Assembly: GCF_002741945.1 (NCBI RefSeq)
Contig: NZ_MDVN01000003.1
Span: forward strand, 310,001-374,000
Reading direction: 5' to 3'
DNA from: Gaetbulibacter sp. 4G1
GTDB lineage: Bacteria; Bacteroidota; Bacteroidia; Flavobacteriales; Flavobacteriaceae
Length of the DNA stretch: 64,000 nt
The translations under genes were made by a program, and so were the position numbers. Below are positions 9,440-53,074 of this stretch, piece after piece (position 1 is the first letter of the stretch; every line of letters begins with the position of its first letter). The notes beneath the pieces were generated by a model. It did not search any database. It saw only the letters and a program-made list of their open reading frames with translations, and was not told the DNA's origin.

Positions 9440-9525
9440 TTTAATTTTTTCAAAGGTTCGTTTAACGGTCTCGGCTATGAGTAGTTGCGTGGTTTAGCAC
9501 TTAACTTTGCAAGTACGCACCAAAC

Positions 9526-9547
9526 TGAAAATCCACGAGGATTTTCA
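9526..9547. repeat. Perfect hairpin inside intergenic repeat R2
   Basis: TGAAAATCC (9526-9534) and GGATTTTCA (9539-9547) form a perfect 9-bp stem with an ACGA loop. It lies within a roughly 120-bp, comparatively GC-rich segment (about 9463-9590) that also contains a 14-bp perfect palindrome, TAAGTAATTACTTA (9562-9575). The segment looks like an intergenic repeat of a type common in flavobacterial genomes, though only this copy is in the window. It has no T-run, so a terminator is unlikely. Confidence 0.6.
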
Positions 9548-9594
9548 GAAGTAGGCGAGAATAAGTAATTACTTACAACCATTGTTAGAAAATG

Positions 9595-10833
9595 TTATTC
9601 TTCTATATATTTCCATAAATCTCCAAATAGCCAAACATGCTTTGGTGTAGTTAAGTCATGACTATTATAATAGAAACTTGATGGAGACCAATAATCTTTC
9701 CATGAATCACCCCCATCAATAGTCTTGTAAAAAACTTCGAGACTGTTAGGGTCAGAAGGGTTCTGATTATGGATAGCAAAGCCAATATTTTCATTTAAAA
9801 AATGATAGTCTAGAATGATGCGATTTAAAAAATCGATTTTTGACCAAGAATTTCCTAGATCAGTAGTTTTATACAAATCAATATTTGATGTAGTATATCC
9901 AATATCACCAAAAAATATTGGTGTTTCAGGCCCAATGTCGAATTCTGAATACGTAATATTCGGAAAATTAATTTTTATTAGAAAATTACCCTCATTTGGA
10001 TTAAGAAAAATTAAGTCATCATTTATTGCATTAAAGTCCCAAATCTTTATTTTTCCAAACGGTAAAGAGCTTAAGTTTGGATAGTAATCATAAATATTTT
10101 CAAAAGAATTATTATCGCTAACATACATTTCTTGATTGTTATCCACGAAAAAACCTTTCGTCAGAGATGTGAACTTGATTTTTCTAATAAATTGTCCAGG
10201 AGTATAAGGTATTTGGAATTTCGTGTCAAAATTAGTTCCCCCATTACTAGAATAACGAATTGTTACTTCGGGTATTGTACCTTCCTTATAAACTCCCAGC
10301 CAACAATTACTCTCATCAAGAAAATTAAAAGAAGTTATATGGTAACCGTTCTCTATAGTATAAATTACCTCCCATGTATAATAACCATCTTCAGATTTGT
10401 ATAATTTTTTACCATCTGTTATTATTGCTACTTGATCACTAAGTGTTTGTAATTGATTAATATCAATATCATTTTTGATAGGTATAAAACCTACTAATTT
10501 TAAATCATATCCCCCTGTTTTAGAACCAGCTGATATAGCTATGTCCTCATGAAAAAGATTTTTGTTTGGAACTCTTATGGTAATTTTTTCATTAGTTTTT
10601 GTTATAAACGAGGATGTTTCAACACTCAAATTACTAAAAGAAGGGTGCGTGTGATTGAAATAAAATTGGCTAATTTTATCTAAATTAACACCAGTAATTG
10701 TAACAGTATCACCAAGTTTTACTCTAAATGGATTAACTTGATTAATACTAGTTTTTTCTTCTGAATCTATAGAATCATTGCTTGAACAACCGATTATGAT
10801 TATGAAAAATAAAATTTTTAAAATTAGTTTCAT
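9595..10833 (-). CDS. Lipoprotein with IPT/TIG domain and BNR/Ycf48-like repeats
   Basis: 412 residues with a type II signal peptide and lipobox IIGC (Cys16). Residues about 30-120 look like an IPT/TIG immunoglobulin-like domain (VNPFRVKLGDTVTITGVNL). The rest resembles a BNR/photosystem-assembly (Ycf48-like) beta-propeller: Asp-box-like units include KSEDGYYTWE, YSSNGGTNF, KTTDLGNSWSK and KTIDGGDSWKD. Likely an outer-membrane or periplasmic lipoprotein; no catalytic function is evident. It is a lone gene inside the inverted-repeat interval and unrelated to its neighbours, which suggests transfer. Confidence 0.75.
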   Translation of the reverse strand: MKLILKILFFIIIIGCSSNDSIDSEEKTSINQVNPFRVKLGDTVTITGVNLDKISQFYFNHTHPSFSNLSVETSSFITKTNEKITIRVPNKNLFHEDIAISAGSKTGGYDLKLVGFIPIKNDIDINQLQTLSDQVAIITDGKKLYKSEDGYYTWEVIYTIENGYHITSFNFLDESNCWLGVYKEGTIPEVTIRYSSNGGTNFDTKFQIPYTPGQFIRKIKFTSLTKGFFVDNNQEMYVSDNNSFENIYDYYPNLSSLPFGKIKIWDFNAINDDLIFLNPNEGNFLIKINFPNITYSEFDIGPETPIFFGDIGYTTSNIDLYKTTDLGNSWSKIDFLNRIILDYHFLNENIGFAIHNQNPSDPNSLEVFYKTIDGGDSWKDYWSPSSFYYNSHDLTTPKHVWLFGDLWKYIEE

Positions 10834-10859
10834 GTTTTAATATTTTCCAATGTTTTTTA

Positions 10860-10914
10860 CGGATATGCGTCGTTTTAATACTGAAATAAATTCAGTACAT
10901 GTGATTTATATCCG
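10860..10914. repeat. Nested inverted repeats upstream of the BNR lipoprotein gene
   Basis: CGGATAT (10860-10866) pairs with ATATCCG (10908-10914), and inside it TACTGAA (10879-10885) pairs with TTCAGTA (10891-10897) around a 5-base loop. Read on the minus strand this cruciform lies in the 5' untranslated region or promoter of the lipoprotein gene. It could be a cassette end, an operator or an RNA hairpin. Confidence 0.5.
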
Positions 10915-11025
10915 ACGTTAAACGAAGTTAGCTAAATTTTCTGATAGAGTCAAGTAAGCTAATTTTCATTCTTATTTAATATTTTTTCATTTAACATTTT
11001 GTTGAATAATTTCAACTATAAGTTG

Positions 11026-12363
11026 TTACTTCGATACTAAACTCACTCCCGCTTTAACCTCTTTTTTCCATAGTTGGAGCTTGTTTGAGAGTTTCTTAAC
11101 TAAATCGGGGTTAATTAAACTAACATCATTCGTTTCTTGTAAGTCATTAGATAAATTGTAGAGTTCAATTTTATCATCATTCTTATTCTTTTTATAAACT
11201 AATTTCCAATCTCCACTTCTAACAAAGCTATTATTACCATAAGCAAAAAAAACATCTCTTTCAGGTAGATTAGTTTGATGTATTAAATTCTCTTTAATAC
11301 TAATTCCATCAATGTGGGTTGAACTTGGCTTTTGGTCAATAAAATCTAAAAACGTAGGCAATAAATCCATAGTGAGAACGATTTGATTATTAATCATTCC
11401 TTTTTTTACTTTATCGGGATAACTAAAAATAGCAGGAACACGACTGCCTCCTTCATAAACACCACCTTTATGTCCCTTAAGTACACCATTACTGCCAAAA
11501 CGATTAGCGCCATTGTCAGATAAGAAAACAATTATAGTATTTTCATATTGTTTTGTTTCTTTAAGTACCTGAATTATTTTACCAATCCCTTCATCCATTA
11601 CTTCTACCATTTCTTTGTATACAGACGGAATACTATTCTTGCTTATAGGTTTTGTTCCCGCTTTACCAACTGTTCTTAAAATACTATCTATACGCCTTTG
11701 GTAGGGGCCATGTGGGGCTTCGTGTGGTAAATAAAGAAAAAATGGTTTAGCTGTATTTTTAGGATTATTTTTTTCGATATATTTTACTCCATACTGTGTT
11801 ATCAAATCAGTTGAATAACCCTCTTCATTTTCAATTTTAGTGCCTTTCCACCAGTCAAGGTAACCTTCTTGGTCAATATGAGCATGATAATCAATGTTTC
11901 CACTCACAAATCCAGTATAATCATCAAAACCTTGTAATGTAGGGTTATATTCTTTAGAATATCCTAAATGCCATTTCCCAAACATCCCACAATTATAACC
12001 ATGTTTTTTTAATTCCTCTGCAATAGTAATTTCATTTAAATTTAAACCAACATCTCTATGGCTTTTTGCGGTAATAACACCTTCAACACCTGTGCGTTGT
12101 TGGTATTTGCCTGTCATTAAAGCTGCACGGGTAGGACTGCAAACAGCTCCATTAGAATGAAAATCTGTGAACTTAATACCTTCTGAAGCTAAAAATTCTA
12201 AATTTGGTGTATGGATAGTTGTACTACCATATGGTTGAATATCTCCGTAGCCCAAATCATCAGCCATGATTAACACTATGTTAGGGGGCAAATTTGTGGC
12301 ATCCTCTTTTTTAATACAAGATAGTACAAAAACAAAGCTAATAAGAAGTATTATTTTTTTCAT
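11026..12363 (-). CDS. S1-family sulfatase, lipoprotein (445 aa)
   Basis: Secreted type I sulfatase that would remove sulfate esters from carbohydrate or aryl substrates. The lipobox LSC is near residue 16, then the metal-binding MADDLGYGD block. The active-site motif CSPTR (Cys75) is the signal for conversion of Cys to formylglycine. FGKWHLGYS and the FLSDNGAN block, which binds Ca2+, are also present. The closest functional class cannot be decided, but the fold resembles arylsulfatases A/B. It is the last gene of a four-sulfatase minus-strand run, 33 bp after the next one. Confidence 0.93.
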   Translation of the reverse strand: MKKIILLISFVFVLSCIKKEDATNLPPNIVLIMADDLGYGDIQPYGSTTIHTPNLEFLASEGIKFTDFHSNGAVCSPTRAALMTGKYQQRTGVEGVITAKSHRDVGLNLNEITIAEELKKHGYNCGMFGKWHLGYSKEYNPTLQGFDDYTGFVSGNIDYHAHIDQEGYLDWWKGTKIENEEGYSTDLITQYGVKYIEKNNPKNTAKPFFLYLPHEAPHGPYQRRIDSILRTVGKAGTKPISKNSIPSVYKEMVEVMDEGIGKIIQVLKETKQYENTIIVFLSDNGANRFGSNGVLKGHKGGVYEGGSRVPAIFSYPDKVKKGMINNQIVLTMDLLPTFLDFIDQKPSSTHIDGISIKENLIHQTNLPERDVFFAYGNNSFVRSGDWKLVYKKNKNDDKIELYNLSNDLQETNDVSLINPDLVKKLSNKLQLWKKEVKAGVSLVSK

Positions 12364-12396
12364 TTTGAGATATAAGCATGTAAGTCTCTTAATAAT

Positions 12397-13956
12397 TTAA
12401 TCCAAGTTAGGTTTTACCCATGCTTTGACCCCATCTAATTCTTTTTGCTTATTATATTCTATCCAAAAAGGTTTTTCCTCTGCCAAAGGTGTATTTTCGT
12501 TAACCAAGTATGGTTTAATGTTGCTCCACCAATTGTTATAAGCTGTTCTCATTTGAGAAACAATTTCAGGATTATTTGAAGCGATATCAAGAGTTTGTCC
12601 AGGATCGTTAATGACGTCATATAATTCTTTATTATTTATATAGCGATAGCGCTCATTTCTTATTGCGCAGTTTTTGTATTTAGAGTTATCAGGATTAGAG
12701 CTTTCTAGTGTTCCAACCCAGCGTTCACTTCCTTTTTGTTTTGACGCGTTTTTTGGGTTTAATGCCCATCTTCCTCCATGGAAAAACCGATAGCGATCGT
12801 CAGTTTTATAAGATTCACTTTTTAAATAGGGAAGAAAACTTTGTCCGTCTATATCTGGTATATCTGAAATGTCAATTCCAGCAATATCAGCAAGTGTTGG
12901 TAAAATATCGTAATGATTTAGTAAAGCATCAACTTTTCTTCCAGAACTAAATTTATCTGGCCATCTTATAAAAAAAGGTACCCTTGTACCTCCTTCATGA
13001 GCACTACCTTTGAATCCTTTCATTCCAGCATTGTAAGTACTACCATGAACATTGTTTTGTCCACCATATGTTTTTCCGTTATCTGACATAAATATTAAAA
13101 TGGTGTTGTCAGCAATTCCCCATAAATCAAGTTTTTCCATCAGTCTACCCAAATTATCATCTATATTTTCAATCATACCATAAAAACCTTGAGCCTTTTC
13201 AGGGTAACCTTGTTCAATAAACTTTTTTTTATATTTTTCTGGCGCTATAAAAGGGCCGTGTGGGGCGTTAGTTGCTATGTAAGCAAAAAAGGGTTTACTT
13301 TCTTTAGATTTATTTTTTAACCATGATAGTGCTTGGGTGAAAAAAATATCAGTACAGTATCCTTTGGTTTTGACAAACGTACCATTATGTTTAATGGTAG
13401 GGTCAAAATATTTATTATCAGGAACATCGGCACAGGAACCAGCATAAGCTTGACCAATACCTCCAGCACCGTGAATAAAAACCTCGTCAAACCCACGATT
13501 TTCTGGTTGATAATCTGATTCATCACCTAAATGCCATTTACCAAATATACCACTAGTATACCCTCCTTTTTTTAAAACTTGTGGTAAGGTTGTTATTCCC
13601 AACGCCATACGTTCTCTTTCCAAAATAGTATGTGTAATTCCATTTTTAAAAGGGTGTCTTCCTGTCATTATTGCCGACCTTGTTGGGGCACAGGTTGGAC
13701 TAACTTGAAAGTCTTCTAAGCTAATACCTTGAGATTTTAGTTTGTCCATATTAGGTGTAGATACATCAGGACTTCCATGTGCGGAGATATCTGCGTAGCC
13801 TTGATCGTCTGTCATCACAACAATTACATTAGGCTTATTTAGTGATACTAATTGTTGTGATGATTTATCTTTGCATGAATACAAAGACAACAAAACGAAT
13901 AATAGTGAACAATAAGAAATTATATTGATGTTATATATTTGCGATATTGATTTCAT
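12397..13956 (-). CDS. S1-family sulfatase, lipoprotein (519 aa)
   Basis: Sulfatase with an unusually long N-terminal hydrophobic stretch and a lipobox-like YSC (near residue 28). MTDDQGYAD supplies metal ligands; CAPTR (Cys89) is the formylglycine motif; FGKWHLGDE and FMSDNGKTY follow. The C-terminal subdomain holds RWALNPKNASKQKG and RYRYINNKELYD. Its substrate is not identifiable from motifs alone. Located between two other sulfatases on the same strand, most likely one transcription unit, although the upstream gap of 119 bp could hold an extra promoter. Confidence 0.93.
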   Translation of the reverse strand: MKSISQIYNINIISYCSLLFVLLSLYSCKDKSSQQLVSLNKPNVIVVMTDDQGYADISAHGSPDVSTPNMDKLKSQGISLEDFQVSPTCAPTRSAIMTGRHPFKNGITHTILERERMALGITTLPQVLKKGGYTSGIFGKWHLGDESDYQPENRGFDEVFIHGAGGIGQAYAGSCADVPDNKYFDPTIKHNGTFVKTKGYCTDIFFTQALSWLKNKSKESKPFFAYIATNAPHGPFIAPEKYKKKFIEQGYPEKAQGFYGMIENIDDNLGRLMEKLDLWGIADNTILIFMSDNGKTYGGQNNVHGSTYNAGMKGFKGSAHEGGTRVPFFIRWPDKFSSGRKVDALLNHYDILPTLADIAGIDISDIPDIDGQSFLPYLKSESYKTDDRYRFFHGGRWALNPKNASKQKGSERWVGTLESSNPDNSKYKNCAIRNERYRYINNKELYDVINDPGQTLDIASNNPEIVSQMRTAYNNWWSNIKPYLVNENTPLAEEKPFWIEYNKQKELDGVKAWVKPNLD

Positions 13957-14075
13957 TTGGTTAAAATTTTGTTATTTTTTTACAGGTTAGAGTTAGTGAC
14001 TATTGAATCATTTCTTGGATATCAAGATTTAATTATGGATGCATCATAAGTTTATTTGAATTAGCTAATGTGTTT

Positions 14076-15581
14076 CTATTTTTTTTGATCCCATTTTATA
14101 TTTCTGTCAAATAGTACTACATATTTTTCGTATCCATTACGTTTCACACCCTCTTTTTTCCAATGTTTCAATTGCTCATCATACAATATTCTCATTTTAG
14201 TTAGTTGAAGGTTGTAATCAGACTGTTCAACAAGGTTTACCATTTCATAAGGGTCGTCTTTAATATTGAACAATTCCTCGCTAGCAAATATTTTTTCATC
14301 CTCATTTTGAAAATACCAATAAATGTATTTGTACTCTTCATCCATTACCGTTAGACAGTGTGTTTCTTTCGGTCCCCAAACTTGAATAATAGGTAAGGAT
14401 TTTCTAACCTGCTTGTTAGGTTTATTTATTATAGGAAGAAGGCTTTTACCATCATAAACAGAAGGGATTTTAATACCTGCAACATCCAATATGGTAGCAG
14501 CTATATCCACATTACCAGACAAAGCATATGTTTTTTTGATTTTTTTATCATTTTTTATACGAGGATCAACAATAATAAGCGGAACACGAGAACCTTCTTC
14601 ATAAGGAAGTACCTTTGAACCCAATCCATGAGAACCATTAAAGTAACCATTGTCTGAGGATAAGATAATAACTGTATTATTATCTATTTTTAACCTTTTA
14701 AGCTCTTCTAAAACCATCCCAATGGCATAATCAACACCATAAATGAGTTGATTGTATTTCCGCAGGGCATTTTGATACGATTCCTCTTTGTCATAGCCCC
14801 ATTGAAAAAATCGTGGATATTGCCTCCCCATTCTAGATTGTGGTGCCAGATGTTCTCCTGCTTTTCTTCCATAATTAGGAAGCTTTCTAAAATCAGTATC
14901 CTTATAAATATTATCGAATATAGAATCTGGTTTAACAGGTCTGTGAGGTGCCTTAAAAAAAACACTCATACAAAACGGTTTGTTTTTGTTTGTTGATTCC
15001 CTAATAAAGTCTATGGTGGCAGCTCCATAGGCACGTGTACTATGAGGATACTTTTCGGCGTATTTGGCTAAAGTTTTATTTTGCGATGTAACATATGATG
15101 TTTGACCAGGGCCACCAACCCAAAAATCAAAATCGTGTCGGGCAATTTCTCCTTCCTTATTTTCAGTTTTGGAACCATCATCTGATATTGCAAAACCAAA
15201 TTTTCCACCAAAACCCACACGATAACCAGCTTGTCGCAATAAAATTGGATAGGAGGTAGACCATTGCTTCGTTCCTAAAGCTCCTCGATTAAAGTTACAA
15301 CCTGTTTTGTATTCATATTGGCCAGTCATAACATTTGCTCTGCTTGCCATACAGATAGCTGTAGTGTTATAATGTCTATAAAACACAGTACCCTTATCTA
15401 CCAATTTATCCATGCTGGGTGTTTTGGTGTTTGGATTACCATAAGCTTTTTGGGTGTCATAAGCTTGATCATCGGTAAAGAAGAAAATAATATTGGGTGT
15501 TTTATTTTTTTGAGCCCACACAATTGCGCTTGCACATATGATTAGAATTAGAGTCCCTATTCTTAAAGTTGATTTTTTCAT
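14076..15581 (-). CDS. S1-family sulfatase with CxAxR active-site motif (501 aa)
   Basis: Exported by a type I signal peptide ending near VWA-Q (residues 1-23) rather than a lipobox, unlike its neighbours. FTDDQAYD gives the metal-binding Asp pair. The formylglycine motif is CMASR (Cys77): the third position is Ala rather than Pro, a variant accepted by the C-x-[PA]-x-R rule of the formylglycine-generating enzyme. GFGGKFGF replaces the usual GKWHLG, so the lysine is kept but the histidine is missing. KAPHRPVKPD and LSSDNGYF follow. It is clearly the most divergent of the block and probably acts on a different linkage. Confidence 0.92.
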   Translation of the reverse strand: MKKSTLRIGTLILIICASAIVWAQKNKTPNIIFFFTDDQAYDTQKAYGNPNTKTPSMDKLVDKGTVFYRHYNTTAICMASRANVMTGQYEYKTGCNFNRGALGTKQWSTSYPILLRQAGYRVGFGGKFGFAISDDGSKTENKEGEIARHDFDFWVGGPGQTSYVTSQNKTLAKYAEKYPHSTRAYGAATIDFIRESTNKNKPFCMSVFFKAPHRPVKPDSIFDNIYKDTDFRKLPNYGRKAGEHLAPQSRMGRQYPRFFQWGYDKEESYQNALRKYNQLIYGVDYAIGMVLEELKRLKIDNNTVIILSSDNGYFNGSHGLGSKVLPYEEGSRVPLIIVDPRIKNDKKIKKTYALSGNVDIAATILDVAGIKIPSVYDGKSLLPIINKPNKQVRKSLPIIQVWGPKETHCLTVMDEEYKYIYWYFQNEDEKIFASEELFNIKDDPYEMVNLVEQSDYNLQLTKMRILYDEQLKHWKKEGVKRNGYEKYVVLFDRNIKWDQKK

Positions 15582-24061: not shown

Positions 24062-24083
24062 AGTTTTTTAAAAATCTGATGTC

Positions 24084-24166
24084 GCGTTAGGGATTGGAGT
24101 GGAAATCCTTTTTGAGAGGTACGAACAAAAAGATTGTATCGTAAAGCCCGACCCTTGTGGTAACGC
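24084..24166 (-). repeat. Intergenic repeat family R1, copy 2 (inverted)
   Basis: Read on the minus strand it starts GCGTTACCACAAGGGTCGGGC and ends CAATCCCTAACGC, the same order of blocks as copy 1 at 7211-7300. GGGTCGGGCTTT is identical in both. The ends GCGTTA (24084-24089) and TAACGC (24161-24166) are complementary. It fills the gap between convergent gene ends, with the rarA stop 8 bp beyond. Confidence 0.7.
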
Positions 24167-52969: not shown

Positions 52970-53074
52970 CAAACTGAAAAATAATAAATTAACAAGTATC
53001 AACAAGAGATAAAATGGTTATCGAAGGATAAGATTAAGACCTTAATTCATAATCACTCTTAAAAACAATTTAAA

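Follow-up and report, generated by a model that had tools for sequence, protein, structure and literature searches.

A probable integron-type gene cassette in a chromosomal docking site of Gaetbulibacter sp. 4G1, and a probable distributed cassette system in Flavobacteriaceae

Introduction

A stretch of 64,000 nucleotides from Gaetbulibacter sp. 4G1 (hereafter the window) contains a lone lipoprotein gene enclosed by a short inverted repeat, which raises the question of what kind of unit this is and how it came to lie there. An earlier note on this DNA had proposed a transferable cassette without its own enzyme, or a MITE-like unit, and had called an integron reading tempting. The results presented here support that interpretation in part. 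The interval is very probably an integron-type cassette inserted into a chromosomal docking site (a dock), presumably by way of a recombinase that heads a cassette array on another contig and acts in trans.

Inverted repeat and spacers

The 11-mer TTCGTTTAACG has exactly two copies in the window, at 9457-9467 on the forward strand and 10916-10926 on the reverse strand, which face inwards and have one main ORF between them (412 aa; two opposite-strand ORFs within it, of 89 and 90 aa, were disregarded). The reported interval, a single gene within an 11-bp inverted repeat, is therefore real. The note had also described two structured spacers. For the left one, single-stranded DNA has a strong fold (-26.3 kcal/mol, z = -5.2, reached by 0 of 200 shuffles), whereas the right one, folded alone, does not stand out (z = -1.2, reached by 24 of 200 shuffles); given this poor fold, the claim of structure in the right spacer rests on covariation. 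The 14-bp palindrome TAAGTAATTACTTA is present in the interval, yet the arms of the left-spacer hairpin (CTGAAAATCC/GGATTTTCAG) measure 10 bp rather than 9 bp. Neither spacer matches Rfam at gathering thresholds.

Both spacers are dispersed repeats. The left element has 9 matches in its own genome and matches in 31 of 60 genomes, its own included, and the right element is found at 13 places in its own genome with E <1e-3 (14 hits, two of which are one site and one of which is a 24-base match). Of consecutive inward-facing pairs of the 10-mer TTCGTTTAAC at most 4 kb apart, 10 were observed against 0.52 expected, with a maximum of 4 in 5,000 random placements, which ignore contig ends. The 10-mer count alone is uninformative genome-wide (46 matches against 35 for the reversed control).

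Docking site and cassette

The features of the interval are presented in Table 1.

Table 1. Features of the docking site and its cassette in the window.
Feature	Position	Strand	Sequence or layout	Basis and remarks
Docking site including the promoter-like box; 3' end interrupted by the cassette	10851..10956	-		Covariance model R1, 97.8 bits, E 3e-16; one of the 13 sites used to build R1
Promoter-like box	10923..10953	-	TTG (10953-10951), 20 nt, TAACTTCG (10930-10923)	Overlaps R'' arm
Docking-site R'' arm, first half of inverted repeat	10917..10926	-	TTCGTTTAAC	
Docking hairpin L'' box	10908..10914	-	CGGATAT	Pairs with L'; covariation
Docking hairpin L' box	10860..10866	-	ATATCCG	Pairs with L''; covariation
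Inserted gene cassette, 1,385 bp	9466..10850	-	TTGGAAAATATT to the G before the core	Junctions from empty site L132 and other occupied sites
Cargo gene, 412-aa lipoprotein, IPT/TIG-like and BNR/sortilin-like repeats	9595..10833	-		Weak Pfam matches
Cassette attC R'' box	9584..9590	-	TTCTAAC	Complementary to cassette start, 7/9 positions match; adjoins stop codon
Cassette attC, hairpin-forming	9466..9592	-		Fold z -5.2; identity to copies elsewhere
R' arm, second half of inverted repeat	9457..9466	-	GTTAAACGAA	Docking-site half displaced to the cassette's far end

The promoter-like box and the R'' arm keep a fixed spacing across 13 aligned sites, and the box resembles what we take to be the Bacteroidetes -33/-7 consensus, TTG/TAnnTTTG; by its sequence, it is a candidate cassette promoter (Pc). 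The L''/L' stem shows 9 double-changed cells in the 13 sites (0 of 500 shuffles) and 82 among 91 matches in other genomes (again 0 of 500 shuffles), although the latter pair counts lean towards the model, since the alignment was fitted to it. For a folded attC substrate, the evidence consists of the hairpin fold and the covariation of the stem. Since the covarying hairpin lies just 3' of the promoter-like box, the right spacer could also be a regulatory leader RNA that merely precedes unrelated genes, but such an RNA would leave the closing arm, the empty sites and the cassette turnover described below unexplained, and we assign this reading next to no probability.

Site L132, on contig C17 of the same genome, is an empty form in which the hairpin closes directly: TTCGTTTAACGTCGGATAT...ATATCCGTAAAAAACA|TTAAACGAACC, with the arm's TTAAACGAA directly 3' of ...ACA. 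In occupied units the cassette begins after ...ACA or a variant of it, and in 12 of the 13 occupied-looking units inspected (the exception being L137) it ends with ...CG right before the closing arm TTAAACGAA at the far end. The inverted repeat thus consists of the R'' and R' arms that belong to a single host site and are split by the insert. The far core's fit to GTTRRRY, judged poor in the note, is poor because the host junction A|TT precedes the cassette's own start. Placing the upstream end of the cassette at the 11-mer (10926) was considered and rejected, given that L132 puts this end at 10850/10851.

The cargo gene starts 17 nt past the cassette junction. Its protein matches Pfam Sortilin-Vps10 (E 2.3e-5) and TIG (E 0.02), both below the curated cut-offs, and has no match in NCBIfam. 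Other genomes have copies of the cassette attC with up to 94% identity, and many of these copies lie in arrays; three copies in the array of its own genome are 76-79% identical to it. In the arrays of relatives, an attC-like copy typically follows a same-strand gene, and the window's BNR gene with the left spacer after it therefore shows the usual cassette order of gene, then attC.

In integrons, the start of a cassette is complementary to its own R'' box. Across 12 occupied units, cassette starts matched their own end regions at a mean of 7.0 of 9 positions, against 4.4 when mispaired, and none of 2,000 permutations reached the observed sum; 2 of 130 mispaired units reached 8/9 matches. This set excludes L132 and L137 and counts the same BNR cassette in two species as two units, and its boundaries were taken from host motifs picked by eye. 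With an automatic rule, 38 occupied sites of other genomes gave 6.8 matches of the start to its own R'', against 5.3 mispaired (0 of 5,000 permutations). The sequences of docked cassettes thus show start/R'' complementarity and are consistent with recombination at G|TT in R'. The tempting integron reading proves right in kind, and the true partner for the start of the window's cassette is the cassette's own R'' box.

Ten proteins from other docks of this genome were tested, four of which have no match in either library. Two of the docked cassettes carry defence-like proteins: L133 979-2819 has an AAA ATPase similar to proteins of defence systems (PDC-M55A/NsnB models), and L127 993-2978 has a PDC-M38A-like protein next to a second protein that carries an Mrr endonuclease domain. 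The other matches are to a membrane protein with DUF418, a secreted FG-GAP protein and a sigma-factor-like protein.

Cassette arrays and their integrase

Many relatives have series of left-spacer copies that all lie on one strand. In 16 stretches selected for attC-like clusters there are 78 attC-like matches, on a single strand in each stretch and with a median spacing of 1.9 kb; a same-strand ORF ends at most 150 nt 5' of 68 of the 78, and the attC strand carries 245 of the 261 ORFs that reach 80 aa or more. These stretches, as well as the array of the studied genome, are thus one-orientation arrays of genes each with an attC. The latter array, on contig C23, comprises an integrase, an attI-like site and 17 attC-like places in one direction, from C23:48108 to C23:60103, a count that is partly a product of construction because fifteen attC queries were cut from this array. 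Three short attC matches in this genome are on the other strand, one of them within the array. As to the unlinked integrase that the note suggested looking for, a tyrosine recombinase heads this cassette array on another contig.

The attI-like site, which ends ACAAG|TTGGCAG, lies directly 3' of the integrase, and the R'' of the first cassette is its complement. By sequence, a putative attI is thus present beside the integrase gene. Of 19 integrase loci (one per genome in 19 genomes), 18 show a G|TT junction after the integrase when judged by eye, G009 being the exception. Same-strand attC sites are found downstream of the integrase in 14 of the 19 loci, and attC sites upstream of it or on the other strand in none of the 19. 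The integrase loci of G009, G010, G034, G035 and G055 have no attC; at those of G010 and G034, less than 1 kb of sequence was left.

The array-head integrase belongs to the phage-integrase (tyrosine recombinase) family. Residues 102-267 and 295-368 of the protein from the studied genome align with residues 8-174 and 245-318 of PDB 2A3V (IntI4 of V. cholerae), leaving about 28 aa where IntI has about 71. This short region is presumably the place of the IntI extra domain, and 19 integrases of this kind align with no insert at that position. Three of them score 196-211 bits against the IntI model TIGR02249, whose cut-off is 265, and 212-242 bits against the XerA model, whose cut-off is 220 and whose NCBI name is "site-specific tyrosine recombinase/integron integrase". 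No integrase exceeds the IntI cut-off in any of the 60 genomes; the raw E-values of TIGR02249 are uninformative, because 59 of the 60 genomes and all 14 controls match it, none over the cut-off. In the Methods of PMC2426708, intI genes were selected by the extra domain or the IntI patch. With no extra domain, the array-head integrase is, by the standard given there, not an IntI. It resembles IntI in position and surroundings, and presumably acts on the docks.

Among other features of these arrays, a tRNA-Ser lies just upstream of the array-head integrase (L086 14401-14486, on C23). DDE transposases are found inside arrays, on the strand opposite to the cassettes (L060 6711-8225, L061 10706-12220, L073 6778-8355 and 9777-11351); the two tested with NCBIfam are of the IS1182 family. 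In another order of Bacteroidota, the 404-kb plasmid pPP2 of Persicobacter psychrovividus (NZ_AP025294.1, L350) has 16 places with a window-like attC, the best 92% identical, and the annotated genes in the viewed stretch are one-directional and mostly hypothetical.

Docking sites in related genomes

The covariance model has 23 matches in the studied genome, 18, 24 and 24 in three congeners (G001, G002 and G003), and 14, 7, 2, 1 and 1 in five other genera, that is, in 9 of the 60 genomes overall; dock counts used stricter filters, and weak matches may be false. In these congeneric genomes, 74 of 89 sites were examined. Seven are empty with an exact arm (10 when three near-exact arms are included), 32 are occupied with an exact arm and 35 have no exact arm, the latter suggesting that many are decayed or mutated docks or false matches of the model. 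In 41 of 43 docked-cassette ORFs of at least 80 aa, the direction is that of the promoter.

Orthologous docks, defined by their upstream flanks, form 30 cross-species pairs in 18 groups. By rule, the cassettes differ in 20 pairs, one of the two species has an empty dock in 6, the content is the same in 2, and 2 are unclear; in one same-content pair, G000:C3:270285 lacks an exact arm and is perhaps not a functional dock. In the pair G000:C17:190134 and G003:C3:190292, the former holds 814 bp and the latter is empty, and the downstream DNA resumes at base 815 versus base 1, with 91.8% identity over 3.2 kb. Similarly, G001:C37:103817 holds 1,849 bp and its orthologue G002:C1:3051372 is empty. As far as sequence can tell, marine flavobacteria would thus have some 20 scattered docks, each with a promoter-like sequence, that hold cassettes differing by species, which points to capture over many slots rather than in a single array.

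These comparisons bear on the MITE-like unit proposed in the note. Ten consecutive inward pairs with inverted repeats around one or a few genes could be produced by a MITE or transposon whose terminal inverted repeats are 11 bp long, but this is extremely unlikely here. No target-site duplication was seen past the shared TT core, a second and cassette-specific inverted repeat lies inside, and orthologous contents differ. Nor are the terminal repeats mobile, given that the outer element stays when the site is empty, with the whole hairpin kept at G003:C3:190292 and G002:C1:3051372. The fixed, repeated unit is the docking site, and the variable part is the cassette. The idea of a transferable cassette with no enzyme of its own, in turn, was right in kind, and empty sites of the same docking-site family exist, albeit none at the window's own position in the three congeners.

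At that position, Wocania ichthyoenteri (G002) has an orthologous dock with a different gene (264 aa, DUF4238) between the same arms and with a different upstream neighbour. The uncultured Flaviramulus N17-2-Z (G003) has the same BNR gene at 99.7% identity, while its flanking genes are 93.0% and 89.7% identical. In G001, the synthase gene is not followed by a dock. The gene and its spacers are hence not syntenic and co-evolving in the absence of an empty site, a pattern that the note had named as fatal to the cassette idea.

The attC of the BNR cassette shared with G003 (L115 4561 onward, G003:C4) is a mosaic there, the inner half being window-like (90%) and the outer half 61% identical; by eye, the outer half resembles the G002 cassette. 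This suggests that homologous recombination also moves cassettes. Docks could even be hypervariable loci at fixed places, where homologous recombination between the promoter/hairpin and attC repeats exchanges the contents with no integrase involved, as these sites are repeated and conserved and the G003 attC looks like a mosaic of window-type and G002-type attC. We consider this unlikely, however, because clean A/G|TT junctions, precise empty sites and cassette-specific start/R'' complementarity are signatures of a recombinase and would not arise from homologous exchange.

An exact search of GTDB genomes for the promoter box and the R'' arm yielded at least 119 stretches with that spacing. Among the matches listed, the genera include Algibacter, Lacinutrix, Hyunsoonleella, Flaviramulus, Wocania, Mariniflexile, Olleya, Winogradskyella and an uncultured Tenacibaculum. 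Eighty loci were taken on, containing 81 sites: among the matches listed, 13 are empty, 38 are occupied, 29 show no arm within the stretch (with less than 2 kb of sequence available in 13 cases) and one is outside these classes. A closing arm was observed at 38 of 56 sites, but 201 of 790 random positions in the listed loci also have an arm at most 2.5 kb away, a background high enough to make its presence alone a weak statistic. Docked-cassette ORFs of at least 80 aa again follow the promoter direction, in 46 of 48 cases among the matches listed.

Direct sharing of genes between docks and the compared arrays is sparse. Of the proteins from the docks of four congeners, 2 of 44 match the 36 array-region loci; from the docks of other genomes, 5 of 46 do so among the matches listed. 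This thin overlap and the many sites with no clear closing arm are among the weakest links of the explanation proposed below.

Proposed mechanism and relation to known systems

In the proposed explanation, the docking site is a short hairpin that resembles attC; its promoter-like box faces outwards, and the -7 element of this box overlaps the R'' arm. Most likely, the tyrosine recombinase at the head of the C23 array cuts the R' box between A/G and TT in trans, presumably with the single-stranded hairpin as its substrate, and a circular cassette would be joined by recombination between its attC and the docking site. Insertion would split the hairpin, so that the cassette comes to be bounded on either side by the inverted repeat, and would place the promoterless cassette gene just downstream of the putative dock promoter, from which it may be expressed.

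Class 1 and sedentary chromosomal integrons share with this system promoterless cassettes with attC, the G|TT core, the R''/L''/L'/R' architecture, and a one-direction array beside a tyrosine recombinase with an attI-like site. They differ from it in two respects: here, the integrase has no IntI extra domain and scores below the IntI cut-off, and attC-like docks are dispersed, with 18-24 model matches per genome in the genus, each with a promoter-like box. Given that cassettes, attC, attI-like site and arrays agree and the integrase domain does not, this is a variant of the integron kind, which would work like an integron with a non-IntI integrase and dispersed slots. We think it rather likely that many Flavobacteriaceae have a distributed integron, in which a central array and about 20 fixed, promoter-bearing, attC-like docks as parallel expression slots are served in trans by a XerA-like tyrosine recombinase that lacks the IntI domain.

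Loot et al. (2024) reportedly described attG sites, at which cassettes enter the chromosome outside the array. The docks likewise hold cassettes outside the array, and ordinary off-target insertion of the attG type might account for them, as such insertion is known in integron biology (PMC12444791). In that paper, attG sites are described as neither attC nor attI and insertions are broadly spread, whereas the targets here form one conserved, structured family with R''/R' arms, a promoter-like box, L''/L' covariation, empty forms and conserved positions. Off-target insertion is therefore very unlikely.

Integrons and intI genes have been reported from Bacteroidota, as PMC2426708 and PMC8618304 indicate, with integrons also covered in PMC9668308 and PMC9024848; the last, the IntegronFinder 2.0 paper, gives one complete integron in Bacteroidetes proper, in Salinibacter. 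CALIN clusters (PMC9668308, PMC9024848) are similar in having attC with no adjoining integrase, but each dock has one insert, a promoter-like box and a host hairpin of its own. The accessible part of the work on Treponema chromosomal integrons (PMC3607928) does not mention dispersed docks such as those found here. A search of literature outside preprints and most subscription journals, in part through incomplete texts, returned no description of flavobacterial docks or of such an integrase, and as far as these searches go, dispersed promoter-bearing docks are undescribed.

Integrons are presented in PMC11023631 as a single platform whose first positions are expressed. If the proposed mechanism is correct, single cassettes would be expressed independently at many chromosomal places and not only at the first position of an array. 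A lineage of this kind would store, express and exchange its cassette genes, which here include defence-like, surface and lipoprotein genes, in a different way. Likewise, if an integrase that lacks the IntI domain acts on folded attC, the need for that domain becomes testable, and its absence could explain why such integrons escaped IntI-based surveys.

Surroundings of the docking site in the window

Three sulfatase-like genes lie in a row beside the dock (11026-15581, reverse strand; Pfam was run on the first), and this stretch is absent beside the orthologous dock in G002. Elsewhere in the window, two Rfam families exceed their gathering scores on the forward strand: the Flavo-1 RNA at 24079-24157 and the S4-Flavobacteria ribosomal leader at 53016-53054.
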